Shown here: positions 5,682 through 63,915 of the stretch, in pieces
Numbering within the stretch: the stretch's first letter is position 1
Layout: every line of letters starts with the position of its first letter
Notes under the pieces: generated by a model
The model's input: only the letters and a program-made list of their open reading frames with translations
Database searches by the model: none
Told to the model about the DNA's origin: nothing
Position numbers and translations under genes: made by a program
Assembly (NCBI RefSeq): GCF_000426885.1
Contig: NZ_AUGF01000007.1
Span: 38,119 to 102,118, forward strand
Reading direction: 5' to 3'
Length of the DNA: 64,000 nucleotides
Source: Moraxella caprae DSM 19149
GTDB lineage: Bacteria > Pseudomonadota > Gammaproteobacteria > Pseudomonadales > Moraxellaceae

Positions 5682-6038
5682 TTAGGCTAGGGCAGATTTT
5701 GCTTTTTCGCAGATTGCCGTGAACGCTGCTGCGTCATGCATGGCGATGTCTGCTAGGATACGGCGGTCAATCTCAATGCTTGCCTTTTTAAGACCATTGA
5801 TAAGACGGCTGTATGACAGACCATTTAGACGAGCACCTGCATTGATACGAGCAATCCACAGACGGCGGAAAGAGCGTTTTTTGTTACGGCGGTCTCTATA
5901 TGCATATTGACCTGCCTTCATTACCGCTTGCACGGCAACACGATACACACGAGAGCGTGCACCATAGTAACCTTTTGCACGAGCCAAGACTTTTTTATGA
6001 CGGCGGTTAGCCTGTACACCACGTTTTACACGAGCCAT
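5682..6038 (-). CDS. rplT: 50S ribosomal protein L20
   Basis: A 118-residue basic protein, the usual L20 length, with the [15 protein letters not shown] start and the [11 protein letters not shown] segment of the family. L20 is an early assembly protein that binds 23S rRNA and in many bacteria represses its own operon by binding the mRNA leader. It follows rpmI by 16 bases in the same operon, and a terminator ends the unit. In most Gammaproteobacteria infC precedes this pair, but here it does not. Confidence 0.98.
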
Positions 6039-6054
6039 TATATTCTCCTAGATA

Positions 6055-6252
6055 TTAAATGTATGGGCACATACGGCGGATTGATGGAACGTCAGCGACG
6101 TGAACCATGACGCAACCACGCAATTGGCGGATACGCTTAGGAGATTTTTTGGTCAAAATGTGGCGTTTGAACGCTTGTTTGCGTTTAAAGCCGTTGGCGG
6201 TTTTTTTAAAACGCTTTGCCGCACCACGTTTGGTTTTTAGTTTTACTTTCAT
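6055..6252 (-). CDS. rpmI: 50S ribosomal protein L35
   Basis: A 65-residue basic protein starting [18 protein letters not shown], the standard L35 N-terminus. A longer frame extends upstream to 6285, but the family start is the ATG at 6252. It is co-transcribed with rplT from the promoter at 6342-6370, leaving an untranslated leader of about 80 bases where L20 autoregulation could act (inferred). Confidence 0.97.
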
Positions 6253-6341
6253 AACTAGCCTCTTTATTAAAGGTTGGCAGACCAACCGATGAACCTTTTT
6301 GCCAATTTATTTAAAAATAAATAGCGGAAGGTGGGACATAT

Positions 6342-6370
6342 ATTATAAAGGGTTTTTGGGTGGATTGCAA
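6342..6370 (-). promoter_or_regulatory. Sigma70-type promoter of rpmI-rplT
   Basis: On the minus strand TTGCAA (6370-6365), exactly 17 bases, then TATAAT (6347-6342). It begins only 4 bases past the stop of the upstream YwqG gene, so the ribosomal genes have their own start of transcription. Confidence 0.75.
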
Positions 6371-6373
6371 TAC

Positions 6374-7192
6374 TTAGCAACAATCAAAGGTAAAAAACGC
6401 CTTATCAAAACGCAAATTTGCCAAATCATCAGGGTGGATAAAGAAATTTCCCACGCCACAATCGCCCCACATTAGCTCCACGCCTTCATCGCCATATTCG
6501 CTAGCTAACTGAAACAGTAGCACATAATCAGACAGTGGCTCGCCATGCTCCCAGCCACGCACGTCATCTTGGGTAAAAAACGGATAACCGCCCACACGGT
6601 GCGACTCGGCTTGTGTCCATGAGTCGTACTCGCTGTGTAACTCCCAATTGTAGTTGCCTTGGTCGGCTTTGTCGTTTAAAAATTGAGCAAGATTTGGCAC
6701 GGTTTCATCAAATTTAAAATCAAAGGCGGTAACAGCTTGGGGCATGACTTCATCAAAACCAATGCGATAAGAGTGTCCTGTGGGAAATGGCAGGGCGTAT
6801 TCATCAGTGTCAATGCTGATGTCTGTTTGTAGGGCGTTGATGTCGTCAAGCACATGGGCGTGGTAGATGAGTTTGTAGCCTGTGCGGTCGGTTAGGTCAT
6901 CAAAGTTAATGCCAAAACAATCATCATTATTGGCGATAAAAAATTGCAACATGCCCGATGTTGGAAAATCAGGCAAGGCAGGCATTTGCCCAAAGTTAAT
7001 CTGTGCCAAAAACGCCATGGGCTTGCCGTCCGTGCCTGTCGGATAACTGTGGTCTTTTGGCAGATAAGGCGTACCGCCAACCTTGCTATCAAAAGGCGTG
7101 GCAGGGTCGGTAGATAACGTCAAGCGAACGGACGGACGCATGGATGCAAAAATTTCATTGGCAAATGGGGCAAAGGCTTGGGGTAGGGTCAT
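6374..7192 (-). CDS. YwqG family protein (DUF1963)
   Basis: A 272-residue soluble protein with the family pattern SKVGGTPYLPKDHSYP near residue 37, MAFLAQINFGQMP near 59, and a C-terminal block with MWGDCGVGNFFI. The family is widespread but its function is unknown; it is often annotated 'YwqG' or DUF1963. The start is the ATG at 7192. The gene is monocistronic, divergent from the broken DUF4105 gene, and its stop lies 4 bases before the rpmI -35 box. Confidence 0.85.
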   Translation of the reverse strand: MTLPQAFAPFANEIFASMRPSVRLTLSTDPATPFDSKVGGTPYLPKDHSYPTGTDGKPMAFLAQINFGQMPALPDFPTSGMLQFFIANNDDCFGINFDDLTDRTGYKLIYHAHVLDDINALQTDISIDTDEYALPFPTGHSYRIGFDEVMPQAVTAFDFKFDETVPNLAQFLNDKADQGNYNWELHSEYDSWTQAESHRVGGYPFFTQDDVRGWEHGEPLSDYVLLFQLASEYGDEGVELMWGDCGVGNFFIHPDDLANLRFDKAFFTFDCC

Positions 7193-7268
7193 GGGGCATC
7201 CTTAATTGTGGTGGTGTCAATGGATATTATGACACGTTTGGGCGGTGGGGGCAATAGCAAGTGATTTT

Positions 7269-8329
7269 ATGTGGCATTTGCTTTATAATAGCCCTTTTAT
7301 CCGCCAAAATTATGACCGACCAACTCCCCAAAAAAACGCCCTTATCAAGGCTCTGCCCCCTGCCGTTCAGCGATTTATCGCCCGCTTTTTTGTTACCCGT
7401 GCTTTTGTTTGGCTCATATCCATTGCCTTTACGCTGTTTGTGGGGGTGAGCAGTTTTTGGCTACTGATGGCACTGTGGGTGCATAAGCCCTTTGGCGAGC
7501 TGGGTACGCAAGTTTTTATGGTGTTTTGGGTGTGTTTGGCAATGAGTTTAACGGGCTTTTTTATCACTCGGGCGATTTTTAGATGACGGACGGATTTGGC
7601 GGTGTACCTTATCTGCTTTGGCGTGGGTCTTGGGTGGTGTTTTGGCATGGACGCAAAAAATAACCGCATTTGGTATGATAAGGACAAATATGATGTAAAT
7701 TGGGAAACTTGCCAGTATAACCTACAAGAGCTAGAAACTTTTGAGCTTATCATCTCCGATTGGGGCTTGGATAAAATCGTACACACGATGGCAAGTTTTG
7801 GCTTTAACGATGGCGAAAAATTAAGCTTTTCTATTGAAATTCGTAAAGAGTCGCATGAGGGCTTTTCGGCGATTGGGGATTTTTTCGCCAGTTTGAGCTT
7901 GGGCTTGTCGTGGGCGATGAGAAGGATTTGATATACTCTCGCACCAACGTGCGTGGCGAAGATGTGTACATTTATCCTGTCAATTTATCAAAAGAAAGCG
8001 TGCGTGAGCTGTTTTTGCTTTATTTACAAAAAGGCGAGAGCCTAAACCACGAAGCCTGTTGGTATAATACGCTGATTAGTAATTGCACTACGTTGATTTT
8101 TGATATGATGGGGGAGATTGAGCGGATACCTGTGGATTATCGGGCGCTACTTGCAGGACTGTTGCCAGAATATCTGCACGATGAGCGGGCGATTGATGCA
8201 AGCTACACGGTGGGGCAGTGGCGAGCCATGGCACACGCCAATCCTTATGTCGAGCATTTGCAAAAAACGGACATGGAAAGTCGTGAGTTTTCAAAACTTA
8301 TCAGGCGGGGTTTGCCAAAATCTGATTAG
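7269..8329 (+). pseudogene. DUF4105 (Lnb N-terminal periplasmic-type) membrane protein, disrupted by a stop and a frameshift
   Basis: Three pieces together make one DUF4105 protein. The first (to 7586) has two membrane helices and ends at an in-frame TGA (7584-7586). The same frame continues with a third helix and the core start (WETCQYNLQELE, then ISDWGLDKIVHTMASFGF and SFSIEIRKESHEGFS). Near 7880-7885 six T's stand where seven would be needed. One extra T would join the frame to GDEKDLIYSRTNVRGEDVYIYP and ISNCTTLIFDMM, ending at 8329. Family members are inner-membrane proteins with a conserved Cys/His periplasmic domain of uncertain function. An upstream GTG (7245) is in frame, but the ATG at 7269 is the more natural start. 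Two independent lesions argue for real decay. Confidence 0.8.
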
Positions 8330-8398
8330 GGCGTACCCTAGCATGATTGGCGGATTTTGTGATAAATTTATGATAAAATACCCCAAAAGGAGACGATG

Positions 8399-9187
8399 AT
8401 GAGCTATCTTGATACCCTAAATTTTAACGCAGACGGACTCATTCCTGCCATTGCCCAAGACCATAAGACAGGGCGGATACTTATGATGGCATGGCAAAAC
8501 CGTGAAGCCCTAGCGATGACGGTACAGACGGGGCAGGCGGTGTATTTTAGTCGCTCTCGTGGCAAGCTGTGGCATAAGGGCGAGACAAGCGGACACACTC
8601 AAATCGTCCATGAGATTCGCACCGATTGCGATAGAGATGTGATTGTGCTTATCATCACGCAGATTGGGGGGATTGCGTGCCACACGGGGCGGACGAGCTG
8701 TTTTTTTGAAAAATTAGACGTGGCGAGCCTTGATTGGGTGGCGGTGGATAAGGTCATTATAGATCCCAGTCAAATCTATGGCGATACGGTAAAAGTGGAC
8801 GCACCGCATACGTCGATTAAGCCAGATAATGGCAAAGTAATCAGCGAGCTTGACCGTATCTTGGATGAGCGAAAAACCGCCGACAAAGACAGCTCTTATG
8901 TGGCAAGCCTATACCATAAAGGGCTGAACAAAATCCTAGAAAAAGTGGGCGAAGAGACGACCGAAGCGATTATCTCCGCCAAAGAATTACAGCTGGTGCG
9001 TGCCACAGGCGACAATGACGAACACACCAAAGCGGACGTGATCTATGAAGTGGCGGATATGTGGTTTCATAGCCTTGTCGCCTTGCACCAGTTGGGGTTG
9101 TCGGGCGATGATGTATTGACCGAATTGGCAAGACGGTTTGGGCTGTCGGGCATTGATGAGAAAAATGCACGCACGCCAAAAGGGTAA
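8399..9187 (+). CDS. hisIE: Bifunctional phosphoribosyl-AMP cyclohydrolase / phosphoribosyl-ATP pyrophosphatase
   Basis: About 262 residues, performing steps two and three of histidine synthesis. The N-terminal HisI domain (1-125) has [26 protein letters not shown], and the metal-binding pair DCDRD and [11 protein letters not shown]. The C-terminal HisE domain (about 145-255) has the MazG-like helices, including [15 protein letters not shown]. Two ATGs stand in tandem at 8396 and 8399. AGGAG (8388-8392) sits 6 bases from the second and only 3 from the first, so I take 8399. The gene lies 64 bases before tatABC, a pairing seen in other proteobacteria, although no metabolic link to Tat is known. 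Confidence 0.95.
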
Positions 9188-61546: not shown

Positions 61547-62185
61547 TTATAAAAACCGCCTAAACAATACAGGACTTTGTCTTAAAAGAGTTTGGGCGTC
61601 TTGTATGGCGGTAAAATCCTTATCACTCATCTGTTTTTGGTGGTCGGTGGTGGGTAGTATAAGTAGTACTTTGCCTGATGTGAGGTTGTCGGTGGTAAGC
61701 CACAACTTTTCAAATTGCTTGCGTGTCAGCGTGCGGTTGCCCCAACTGCTATCCGCCAAATAAACATTTTGCTTGTCAATGGCACGCACCACACTAAAAT
61801 GGTCGCTCCGTTTGTGATTGACATAAACGATGGCAGGGATTTTGATTTTGGCAAGTGTGTCATAATCCATCATCATACCACGAGCGGTGTAGCCGTATTT
61901 TTCACTCACTTTTGCCAAATCCAAAAACGATGCCATCACGTCATCTAATGCCATGTCGTCCAAAATCTCGCTTTCGGTTTTAGGGTTTTGATAAAAGTAT
62001 GTCAAAACGGTGGATAGCGATGACGCACCGCACGAATAATCCACGTCTTGCTTGGTCAGCTGACTGTCTTTGATGTCTTTCCACGTGGTTTTTGTACTAA
62101 GGGAATTTGGCGTGTACCAATCAGCATGAGCATATGTCGCCATGATGGTTGATATTACCAGCCCAATTTTTAAAAAATGTGTCAT
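61547..62185 (-). CDS. Secreted C39-family cysteine peptidase
   Basis: 212 residues. A Sec signal peptide (about 1-21, ends TYAHA) is followed by a single peptidase C39 domain. The triad is complete: Cys52 in VDYSCGASSLSTVL, His129 in KRSDHFSVV and Asp145 in YLADSSWGN; the oxyanion Gln is probably Gln46. There is no ABC-transporter part, unlike bacteriocin exporters. It would act in the periplasm. The ATG at 62185 is 2 bases past the barrel-gene stop; the frame upstream to 62251 lies inside that gene. FapD of the Pseudomonas amyloid operon is a comparable stand-alone C39 protein. Confidence 0.88.
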   Translation of the reverse strand: MTHFLKIGLVISTIMATYAHADWYTPNSLSTKTTWKDIKDSQLTKQDVDYSCGASSLSTVLTYFYQNPKTESEILDDMALDDVMASFLDLAKVSEKYGYTARGMMMDYDTLAKIKIPAIVYVNHKRSDHFSVVRAIDKQNVYLADSSWGNRTLTRKQFEKLWLTTDNLTSGKVLLILPTTDHQKQMSDKDFTAIQDAQTLLRQSPVLFRRFL

Positions 62186-62186
62186 G

Positions 62187-63131
62187 TCAGTCGGCAGTGT
62201 CTGATTTGGTTTGACGGTATTTTTGAGATAAAGGCGGTGGCAATGCACCAAGTTTGGTTGTCAATCCCACTGACAGCGTACTTCCACCATCGCCAGAGAT
62301 GGGCATACGAACATTGGCAGTTAGGTTGCTCCGAGCGGTCAAGGCATAGGCAAATCCTAGATTTAGCGTGGTTTGGGTGCTTCTGTTTTCGAATTTACCC
62401 AGCTCATTTTTGTCCGCCCATTTATGGCGTACGCCCACTCCACCTGTCAGCGTGATGTCAGGATTAACCGCAAAACCCACTGAGCCGTTTAATGTCGCTG
62501 TATCACCCAACTCCACACGAGTACCCACGTTAGTCTGACGATTTGCCTGATATTGATAAGTCCCTGTCAGACTAAGTACGATGGGGTCATTGACCGTATA
62601 AGTGGTAAAGCCAACCAGTGCTGACGTGCCACTTTTGCTTTTAAGCCCTTGTGTGTTGTCATATAGCGATAACTCGCCAAAGCCAATCATGTCAGGCAGT
62701 TTGGCATGATTTTTGGTAAATTGGTATTGGGCACTAAGGCTGATGTCATTGAGATGAGTGTTGCTTGACTTTGACAATTCCGCACCATTTTGGTGGCGTG
62801 CATTACGATAGATGGCATTCGTTTTTACGCCCATTTCTAGCTTATCGCTCACGCCATAACGCACGCCCAGCCCTGCAATCAGGCTATCGGTATTGGCATT
62901 ACTCTCGCCGATGGATGGCATATACAGCGTGCGACCCTGCCCCAAATCCACCATCTCAAAACCCTGTGTGGCGACAGATGAACGATGATGATTATAATAG
63001 CTCAAATCCGTATCAAGCTTAAAGCGGTTTTTATCCGCCAATAGGTCATCGACTGTAAGAGGGAGGTCGGCGTGAGTAACACTTGCAAATAACAAGATGC
63101 CAACAGCTAGAATGATTTTAAATAAGTACAT
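62187..63131 (-). CDS. Outer-membrane beta-barrel protein (transporter-like)
   Basis: 314 residues. Signal peptide to about residue 21 (ASVTHA). The rest is alternating-residue beta strands with aromatic girdles (LDISLSAQYQF-type, MGVKTNAIYRNARHQ, LSLTGTYQYQANRQTN, TGGVGVRHKWADKNE, LNLGFAYALTARSNL). It resembles the 'MetA-pathway of phenol degradation' transporter barrels. It ends in a Pro/Lys/Asp-rich polar tail instead of Phe, which is unusual for a BAM substrate. It begins 2 bases after the small membrane gene and is 1 base from the C39 gene, so it is in the same operon. Confidence 0.78.
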   Translation of the reverse strand: MYLFKIILAVGILLFASVTHADLPLTVDDLLADKNRFKLDTDLSYYNHHRSSVATQGFEMVDLGQGRTLYMPSIGESNANTDSLIAGLGVRYGVSDKLEMGVKTNAIYRNARHQNGAELSKSSNTHLNDISLSAQYQFTKNHAKLPDMIGFGELSLYDNTQGLKSKSGTSALVGFTTYTVNDPIVLSLTGTYQYQANRQTNVGTRVELGDTATLNGSVGFAVNPDITLTGGVGVRHKWADKNELGKFENRSTQTTLNLGFAYALTARSNLTANVRMPISGDGGSTLSVGLTTKLGALPPPLSQKYRQTKSDTAD

Positions 63132-63133
63132 TA

Positions 63134-63391
63134 TTATTTCCCATCTTTCTTATAAATATGCAATATAGCAACCATGCCCATAAAAGGGTAGCATAAAGAC
63201 ATACCAATATAAAGCAAAGAGTTATTTGATATTCCTAATGATTTGATGGAAAGCAAACCCATCAATAGTAAAAAAACTAATGCAAAGCAAATATTTTGTA
63301 AGGTTAAGCTTTCTTTTTTTATGAAAGTATTAAAAAATTGAAATATAGAAAACAGTAGCATTGTTGCCAAGAAATAAGAGAATTTATCCAT
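63134..63391 (-). CDS. Small hydrophobic membrane protein
   Basis: 85 residues with three predicted helices (about 5-23, 32-52, 57-78) and a basic C-terminus (HIYKKDGK). No known domain. It lies 90 bases after the precursor gene and 2 bases before the barrel gene, so it is part of the operon. Small membrane proteins next to bacteriocin genes are often immunity proteins; this is only a positional inference. Confidence 0.7.
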   Translation of the reverse strand: MDKFSYFLATMLLFSIFQFFNTFIKKESLTLQNICFALVFLLLMGLLSIKSLGISNNSLLYIGMSLCYPFMGMVAILHIYKKDGK

Positions 63392-63480
63392 AATCTAAAA
63401 CTTTCCAAAATTATTTGAATTGTGATGGAAATAACAACATAAATCCACCACAATCTTGCAAGATAGAGATATTTTTAGAT

Positions 63481-63915
63481 TTATTTTCTCATTTTATTGT
63501 TTGCTATACTACCACCAGCAAGTACAATTCCGCCACCGATAATTGGAGCTCTGATTGCTCCGATAGGTGTTGCTGCTACTGCTCCGCCAATAGCTCCGCT
63601 ACCAAAAGCTGTGGCATATCCACGCCAAGTTCTTTGATTTTTTGGTACATTGTGAGCATAACTGCCAAGATTGTAAAAGCCACCAACTGCCGCTGCTCCT
63701 GCAATGTATGGCAACGCCGCCCCCTCTGTCTCCTGCATTTCTGCAAGTGTCATGTCTGTTGTTTGCAGATTTTCCACATCATCAAAAGCGAAGGATAGGT
63801 CGATATTTTGAGTAGATAATTCCACACTCGGTGTGTTATAATGAGCAGTCGTCTCTGCAAATGCAGGAGCGATGGCTACGGTAGCACTTAGTGCTAGGAT
63901 TGAGAGTTTTTTCAT
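63481..63915 (-). CDS. Secreted glycine-rich precursor with double-glycine-type second leader
   Basis: 144 residues. A Sec signal peptide (MKKLSILALSATVAIAPAFA, cleavage about 20) is followed by a polar stretch and then MTLAEMQETEGA (55-66). That fits the double-glycine leader pattern: hydrophobic at -12, Leu at -10, Glu-Met at -8/-7, Gly-Ala at -2/-1. The predicted mature part (67-144) begins ALPYIAGAAAVGG, has a basic NVPKNQRTWRGY region and a glycine zipper (GSGAIGGAVAATPIGAI and GGGIVLAGGS), as in membrane-active bacteriocins or fibre subunits. AAGGAAAAC precedes the ATG. It is the first gene in the visible operon. Confidence 0.82.
   Translation of the reverse strand: MKKLSILALSATVAIAPAFAETTAHYNTPSVELSTQNIDLSFAFDDVENLQTTDMTLAEMQETEGAALPYIAGAAAVGGFYNLGSYAHNVPKNQRTWRGYATAFGSGAIGGAVAATPIGAIRAPIIGGGIVLAGGSIANNKMRK

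Follow-up and report, generated by a model that had tools for sequence, protein, structure and literature searches.

A Moraxella caprae locus joins a likely toxin-immunity cassette to a Fap-like pair of C39 peptidase and outer-membrane barrel

Among known systems, the nap island of Neisseria gonorrhoeae and the Fap system come closest to the four-gene locus described here, which lies at the end of a 64,000-nucleotide stretch of Moraxella caprae DSM 19149 (contig NZ_AUGF01000007.1; the whole stretch is called the window) and encodes a small precursor, a small membrane protein, an outer-membrane barrel and a C39 peptidase. The nap island, the nearest published system found, holds the C39 peptidase NapP, the FapF-like NapF and three Gly-Gly peptides (NapA-C), for which its authors propose periplasmic cleavage and export by NapF, with napI as a possible immunity gene (PMC11798529). 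In the Fap system, FapD bears a general secretory (Sec) signal and acts in the periplasm, its active-site Cys being required for secretion, and FapF is the pore that exports the substrates that cross by Sec (PMC5557850). Zhang et al. 2012 give at least eight delivery systems of polymorphic toxins, and none of those named in the accessible portion of that paper uses a C39/FapF route (PMC3482391). The comparisons presented below indicate that the M. caprae locus most likely forms the final unit in an array of polymorphic toxin-immunity cassettes equipped with a Fap-like C39/barrel export pair, in which open reading frame 1 (ORF1) would be the toxin precursor and ORF2 its immunity protein.

The locus shares with the nap island a stand-alone C39 peptidase, a FapF-like channel and Gly-Gly-type precursors (Gly-Ala in the window), and with Fap the barrel and a C39 peptidase that would be periplasmic. 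Fap differs by its amyloid repeat substrates and its further fap genes, whereas the window substrate has a clear Gly-Ala leader and toxin-like cassettes. The four ORFs lie on the minus strand in the order ORF1, ORF2, barrel and C39, with intergenic gaps of 89, 2 and 1 bases:

63481..63915, minus strand: ORF1, precursor and likely toxin (144 amino acids), made up of a Sec-like signal, a leader and a core rich in glycine
63856..63915, minus strand: signal-peptide-like N-terminus of ORF1, residues 1-20 (MKK...APAFA), by reading of the sequence
63718..63855, minus strand: ORF1 leader, residues 21-66, ending in EMQETEGA; predicted C39 substrate, from column conservation in 31 core families
63718..63723, minus strand: Gly65-Ala66, predicted cleavage site, Gly-Ala being the leader end of most motif-bearing database precursors (counts below)
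63484..63717, minus strand: variable core of ORF1, residues 67-144, with a Gly+Ala fraction of 0.40 and a net charge of +7, from the sequence
63134..63391, minus strand: ORF2, membrane protein and likely cognate immunity protein (85 amino acids; relatives in loci L038 and L047)
62187..63131, minus strand: FapF-like outer-membrane barrel (314 amino acids; by profile, PDB sequence and model)
61547..62185, minus strand: stand-alone C39 peptidase with signal-peptide-like N-terminus and Cys52, His129 and Asp145 (212 amino acids; by Pfam and NCBIfam)

This layout agrees with the initial annotation of the stretch, which had been made from its letters alone: all the ORFs and spacings that it listed are recovered, the three residues of its catalytic triad are present in the C39 protein, its Gly-Ala leader motif falls at residues 65-66 of ORF1, and no ATP-binding cassette (ABC) transporter is seen in the locus. 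The signal peptides that it assigned to three products correspond, by reading, to signal-like starts (a basic or short start, a hydrophobic run and an AxA-type end) on ORF1 (..APAFA-ETT), the barrel (..VTHA-DLP) and the C39 protein (..YAHA-DWY). Its proposal that the precursor crosses by Sec, is trimmed by a stand-alone C39 peptidase in the periplasm and leaves through a barrel of its own stands as an interpretation; the likeness of the barrel to FapF, the likely toxin-cassette nature of the precursor and the probable immunity role of ORF2 had escaped it.

The peptidase is FapD-like and the barrel is a distant relative of FapF. The C39 protein scores 81.7 bits against the Pfam Peptidase_C39 profile (cut-off 22), with Asp145 placed inside the motif LADSSWG that starts at residue 143. 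Its best NCBIfam model is C39_FapD (E 1.8e-19; 69.9 bits, below the equivalog cut-off of 330), followed by FilB (NF050078; E 7.9e-16; 58.2 bits, below the cut-off of 475), the C39 peptidase of a putative pilus system. The domain stands by itself in its 212-residue protein and is not fused to an ABC exporter as in the type I double-glycine bacteriocins. The sole other C39 match in the genome is found on contig C57 within a 719-residue protein, which we take to be an ABC exporter and whose neighbours (L004) are presumably a 941-residue RTX-like protein, an adaptor-like gene and a TolC-like gene. The barrel matches NCBIfam FapF with an E value of 1.4e-5 (24.1 bits, far below the equivalog cut-off of 700) and PDB FapF by sequence with an E value of 0.0049. 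A model built from 44 sequences, with a mean predicted local distance difference test (pLDDT) score of 84, was compared with the PDB and the first 18 rows were all FapF, the best being 5o67_B (E 4.5e-17; template modelling scores 0.67/0.72). A route by Sec, C39 and barrel thus has a worked precedent, since FapD acts in the periplasm and FapF is a pore.

The precursor is modular, and the module boundary lies at the Gly-Ala pair. ORF1 has 164 database relatives at E<=1e-3, many of which have only the leader in common with it (best 120 of 164). With leader-bearing queries, 173 precursors were gathered among the matches listed (two listings of 120 rows each); 170 of them carry the leader motif, which ends in Gly-Ala in 166 of these 170, so that the Gly-Gly/Gly-Ala motif predicted by the initial annotation is kept across the family. 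Core lengths in the 170 range from 23 to 134 residues, and a simple signal-peptide pattern is positive in 127. When the 166 motif-bearing precursors with a core of at least 35 residues were clustered, 13, 15 or 31 core families were obtained with no identity threshold, with 35% and with 50%, respectively. Taking one representative of each of the 31 families, the mean pairwise column identity drops from 0.77 in columns -28 to -1 to 0.22 in the next 10 columns and 0.12 in the following 30. A constant leader followed by interchangeable C-terminal cores (31 families, with the step at Gly-Ala) is a defining trait of polymorphic toxin systems. The near-invariant leader positions are Met -12, Met -7 and Gly -2, and C39 enzymes recognise hydrophobic residues at such positions in double-glycine leaders. 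At locus L045, leader DNA of the paralogues aligns at 70-86% in all 15 pairs whereas in 11 of the 15 the core DNA does not align at all, which fits cassette recombination through the leader. A leaderless cassette is also present there, at L045 12606-12896.

The cores travel with the small genes that follow them. In the linkage test 22 of 25 picked precursors were kept, the three dropped rows being one with no partner, one whose partner call was the C39 gene itself and one whose partner call was a piece of the precursor; 206 between-locus comparisons resulted. The picking pattern had missed L083 5172 (EMERTEGA), L046 14891, which is much extended at its 5' end, and, in L045, L046 and L047, frames that are short or split. 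At E<1e-5 there are 34 core-similar and six partner-similar pairs, and all six partner-similar pairs are also core-similar; shuffling of the partners gave a mean of 0.88 joint pairs and reached six in none of 20,000 permutations. At E<1e-3 the figures are 41 core-similar, seven partner-similar and six joint pairs (reached in 3 of 20,000 permutations). Some of the linked pairs are syntenic relatives. The ORF1/ORF2 pair of the window resembles that of L038 (core 90%, partner 72%), and a genus g9 pair resembles one of an Acinetobacter plasmid (core 44%, partner 48%). ORF2 has a second relative at L047 13912 (flipped; 49% over 72 residues), which adjoins a fragment of an ORF1-type core (63% over 38 residues). 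Core and partner also agree in character: their hydropathies correlate (Spearman 0.74, n=21; 0.80, n=15 with six relatives dropped; computed after the table split by Gly+Ala content had been viewed), the partner being hydrophilic where the core is hydrophilic and a membrane protein where the core is hydrophobic, and a simple hydropathy rule finds a membrane-like stretch in 17 of 21 partners. Because partner types travel with core types, ORF2 is read as the likely cognate immunity protein of ORF1.

Partners are also seen alone. Two genomes with barrel and C39 and no precursor match (G067 and G056) hold four solo genes resembling known partners, and overall 10 of 18 solo-partner candidates resemble a known partner, one of the 10 being the partner of L083 5172, and 8 do not. 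One partner family combines a zinc-ribbon-like CxxC pattern with a membrane stretch (L076 7388-7756; L044 13651-13944, flipped; L083 5543-5824; L041 14112-14420); it follows a short FIPIILNVGGRF-type core in L076, L044 and L083 and is solo in L041.

Several cores of the family recur at the ends of much larger proteins. When seven precursors were searched against plasmid records, three of them (P0097, P0060 and P0096) matched the terminal parts of genes of the Rhs, hemagglutinin-repeat or DUF6443 kind. Residues 183-247 of P0097 match the final codons of a Methylomonas Rhs gene (64.6%, E 4e-17). The P0096 core matches a Pannonibacter hemagglutinin-repeat gene of 3,055 codons (58.7%, E 4e-10; the match stops 32 codons before the stop), whose locus holds an annotated immunity gene for contact-dependent inhibition (CDI), and the near-end of a Hymenobacter DUF6443 gene (45.9%, E 1e-4). 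The P0060 core matches a Rhizobium brockwellii hemagglutinin-repeat gene (41.5%, E 2e-5; the match stops 23 codons before the stop), a Rhizobium record that lacks annotation and a hypothetical protein of Simkania; its GIY-YIG nuclease match of 21.0 bits, just below the cut-off of 22.6, is the only match of the family scans that makes sense. In the plasmid records P0246 and P0117 found only related arrays, and ORF1 and L045:9673 found no match. Sharing of toxin domains with other delivery systems, a further trait of polymorphic toxins, is thus seen for the family and not through ORF1 itself. In the class-wide search the P0097 core was found in one of 369 genomes, inside a frame of 172 codons. 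The gene that follows a P0097-like precursor in a gonococcal record is similar to the one downstream of the Methylomonas Rhs toxin (29% over 55 residues, E 2.8e-7), which suggests that a toxin and its partner have been kept together across two delivery systems.

Like the CDI and Rhs proteins (PMC3482391), the family has a constant N-terminus, a swappable core, a downstream partner, solo cassettes and partners, and common cores; it is set apart by its short precursors, its Sec-like signal with C39 leader and its export, presumably through a FapF-like barrel. It is improbable that the locus is instead a Fap-like fibre system, with ORF1 as a surface amyloid or adhesive subunit, ORF2 as an accessory and the C39 and barrel acting as FapD and FapF. 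The Fap-like character of barrel and peptidase would suit this, as would the Photobacterium and Croceicoccus plasmid records, in which a barrel of this type and a C39 match are found with proteins of Asn/Asp/Ser-rich repeats, and a Vibrio plasmid with the barrel and such repeats; yet the Asn/Gln-rich repeats that are the hallmark of Fap substrates are absent from ORF1 by reading, its relatives exchange whole cores, some of them common to Rhs and hemagglutinin-repeat proteins, and partners covary with the cores. In the Vibrio, Photobacterium and Croceicoccus records (L077, L078 and L080) the FapF-like barrels lie by proteins with DNSDNS/FNDNSDN repeats and by proteins with Gly-Gly-type leaders; a C39 match is present in L078 and L080, and tblastn gave none in L077. 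These three records probably represent a fibre branch of the same machine.

Several observations weigh against a toxin-immunity array. The number of core families hinges on the threshold, and a few of the 31 resemble frameshifted copies; leader conservation was in part selected by the leader-bearing queries, although the position of the break was not. The ORF1 core matches no known toxin in Pfam, NCBIfam, PADLOC or the plasmid records, and one core model gave no trusted structural match. Of the 34 pairs with similar cores at E<1e-5, 28 have partners that are not detectably alike, in one case at 66% core identity, and one partner-similar pair at E<1e-3 has unlike cores. Some of the core-similar pairs with unlike partners arise from the mutual resemblance of glycine-rich cores, and others perhaps from changed immunity. 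Cores split by Gly+Ala content are associated with membrane partners at p=0.088 only. Finally, the Nap peptides did not inhibit the growth of the bacteria tested and have a role in autolysis (PMC11798529).

This last point would favour a Nap-like suicide, in which ORF1 yields a membrane peptide that lyses its own producer in stationary phase and not its rivals, and the nap island does join a C39 peptidase and a FapF relative to autolysis-promoting Gly-Gly peptides (PMC11798529). We give this explanation little credence, because the covarying partners and the presence of up to seven leader genes per genome fit better with immunity against kin, and the predicted mature ORF1 core has 78 residues, whereas the mature nap peptides have 16-36. 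The window family is further distinguished by its linked partners, cassettes and toxin-like domains, and interchangeable, partner-matched cores are not described for nap in the accessible text. A likeness in product is offered by Cdz of Caulobacter, where small glycine-rich killers go with a small membrane immunity protein (PMC5380434); a type I secretion system such as CdzAB was not seen when the ORFs at the end of the window and in related loci were read, the part upstream of ORF1 being cut off.

The association of these genes is not due to chance, since close relatives of the C39, the barrel and the leader co-occur in Moraxellaceae genomes. A C39 match at E<=1e-6 is found in 144 of 299 genomes, of which only 12 are close (>=59% identity, E<=5e-74), the other 132 having E values of 6e-17 or weaker and 25-39% identity. 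The leader-bearing precursor is present in 11 of the 299 and the barrel in 12, two of these broken or partial. Ten genomes have both the leader and a close C39, 2 have only the C39, 1 has only the leader and 286 have neither (Fisher 5e-16, a value in which kinship overstates independence); in all 10 joint genomes the two share one locus. The co-occurrence of C39 homologues with such precursors, on which the initial annotation had made its proposal depend, is therefore borne out (10 of 12 genomes with a close C39, against 1 of 287 others). One genome with leader and C39 (G094, L037) has no barrel match. In M. bovoculi 237 (L039 7018-8615) the barrel frame is in two pieces and the C39 frame is whole.

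Successive precursor and partner units, followed by the barrel and then the C39, are seen in M. oculi Tifton1 (L036), M. bovoculi 237 (L039), L045 and several Moraxella metagenome-assembled genomes. Related Moraxella loci contain one to seven precursors, most of them followed by a small partner gene; L045 has seven leader matches, six of which were taken by the picking rule. The genus g9 locus starts with the barrel, which is followed by the precursor, at least one partner-like gene, a secreted protein of 159 residues and C39. A lake Acinetobacter plasmid carries one unit ahead of the barrel and two behind it, three in all, and then the C39. Within a class-wide sample the barrel was found at E<=1e-10 in 6 of 369 genomes, M. 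caprae included. Outside the Moraxellaceae, L098 and L101 hold a barrel, a precursor whose leader is related and ends in TEGA and TEGE, respectively, a membrane partner of small size, a secreted protein and C39. Other precursors lie beside C39 and barrel in L099, L102 and L103, and in L100, with a C39 and a broken barrel, no precursor was recognised. That the precursors are variable secreted proteins aimed at an animal host, with the partners as chaperones, is very improbable: the precursors are variable and predicted to be exported, and the carriers M. bovoculi, M. ovis and M. caprae are, as we take it from their names, animal-associated, but a similar array lies on the lake Acinetobacter plasmid, three of the cores have counterparts at the ends of carriers of the Rhs or hemagglutinin-repeat type, and the membrane-like stretch of most partners is unlike chaperones.

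Taken as a toxin-immunity array, the locus suggests the following course of events. The Sec signal would take ORF1 over the inner membrane; in the periplasm the C39 peptidase would recognise the leader and cut after Gly65-Ala66, where the conservation step is found; the freed core would then exit through the barrel, as the FapF likeness and the gene linkage suggest, and would inhibit rival cells. Sister cores are probably enzymes in some cases, whereas the glycine-rich, cationic core of ORF1 would most likely act on membranes. Such membrane damage, expected by analogy with the Cdz proteins and from the membrane partner ORF2, is the weakest of these steps. ORF2 would shield the producer, to judge from its linkage, and new cassettes would enter through recombination in the common leader DNA.

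Parts of a fibre-export system may in this way have been turned into a weapon-delivery route against rival bacteria. The balance tilts towards a separate delivery class of polymorphic toxins, defined by Sec, a free C39 peptidase cutting a dedicated leader and a FapF-like barrel, with interchangeable cassettes that pass between Moraxella, Acinetobacter plasmids, Neisseria and further Gammaproteobacteria, and with Fap fibres and Nap peptides as two other cargoes of one machine; there is a fair chance that the system deserves a class of its own if export and killing are demonstrated. What is new is the predicted presence of interchangeable toxin-immunity cassettes on a C39/FapF-like route, the route itself having a precedent that lowers its novelty. 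No work joining C39/FapF export with polymorphic toxins was found in the open literature, judged by titles and the starts of abstracts. If correct, this adds an export route for polymorphic toxins, suggests a role for stand-alone periplasmic C39 peptidases and FapF-like barrels outside Fap, would make the nap island peptides possible worn or minimal relatives of such cassettes, and gives a possible interpretation of many small hypothetical genes, both in Moraxella and on the Acinetobacter plasmid, each core with its own partner being a testable pair.

The related precursors and partners gave little in family scans. ORF1 and ORF2 have no trustworthy match in Pfam, NCBIfam or PADLOC, and 20 further precursor entries (one of them a leaderless cassette) and nine partners, searched mainly against Pfam and NCBIfam, gave weak matches only; L044:1-120, a stray piece, is left out of account. 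A class IIb bacteriocin leader model matched P0103 and L036 5689 weakly (12 bits).

The upstream part of the M. caprae locus is missing, as its contig (C6) ends at the window end, 85 bases before ORF1. Another contig of this genome, C16, breaks off within a further leader gene of this type (L082 5250-5457), and its end is 97% identical over 180 aligned bases to the 85 bases before ORF1 and the start of ORF1. The simplest reading is that C16 and C6 belong to one array whose assembly was broken by the repeated leaders.

The gonococcal record NZ_CP119140.1 (L081) shows at 6001-9153 an unbroken frame for a FapF-like barrel, a leader precursor with an Rhs-type core and its partner, together with a second core match and the gene following it, flanked by genes for ZnuA and for an M1 peptidase. 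This match was considered as the nap island and rejected, because C39 and partial barrel matches sit elsewhere in the record, 3 kb apart.

A protein of 159-316 residues whose start resembles a signal peptide lies just before the C39 gene in four loci (L043 2589-3068, L044 14362-14841, L098 9805-10755 and L101 1638-2471, the last three flipped). We take it to be DUF2059-like, and it may be a periplasmic chaperone.

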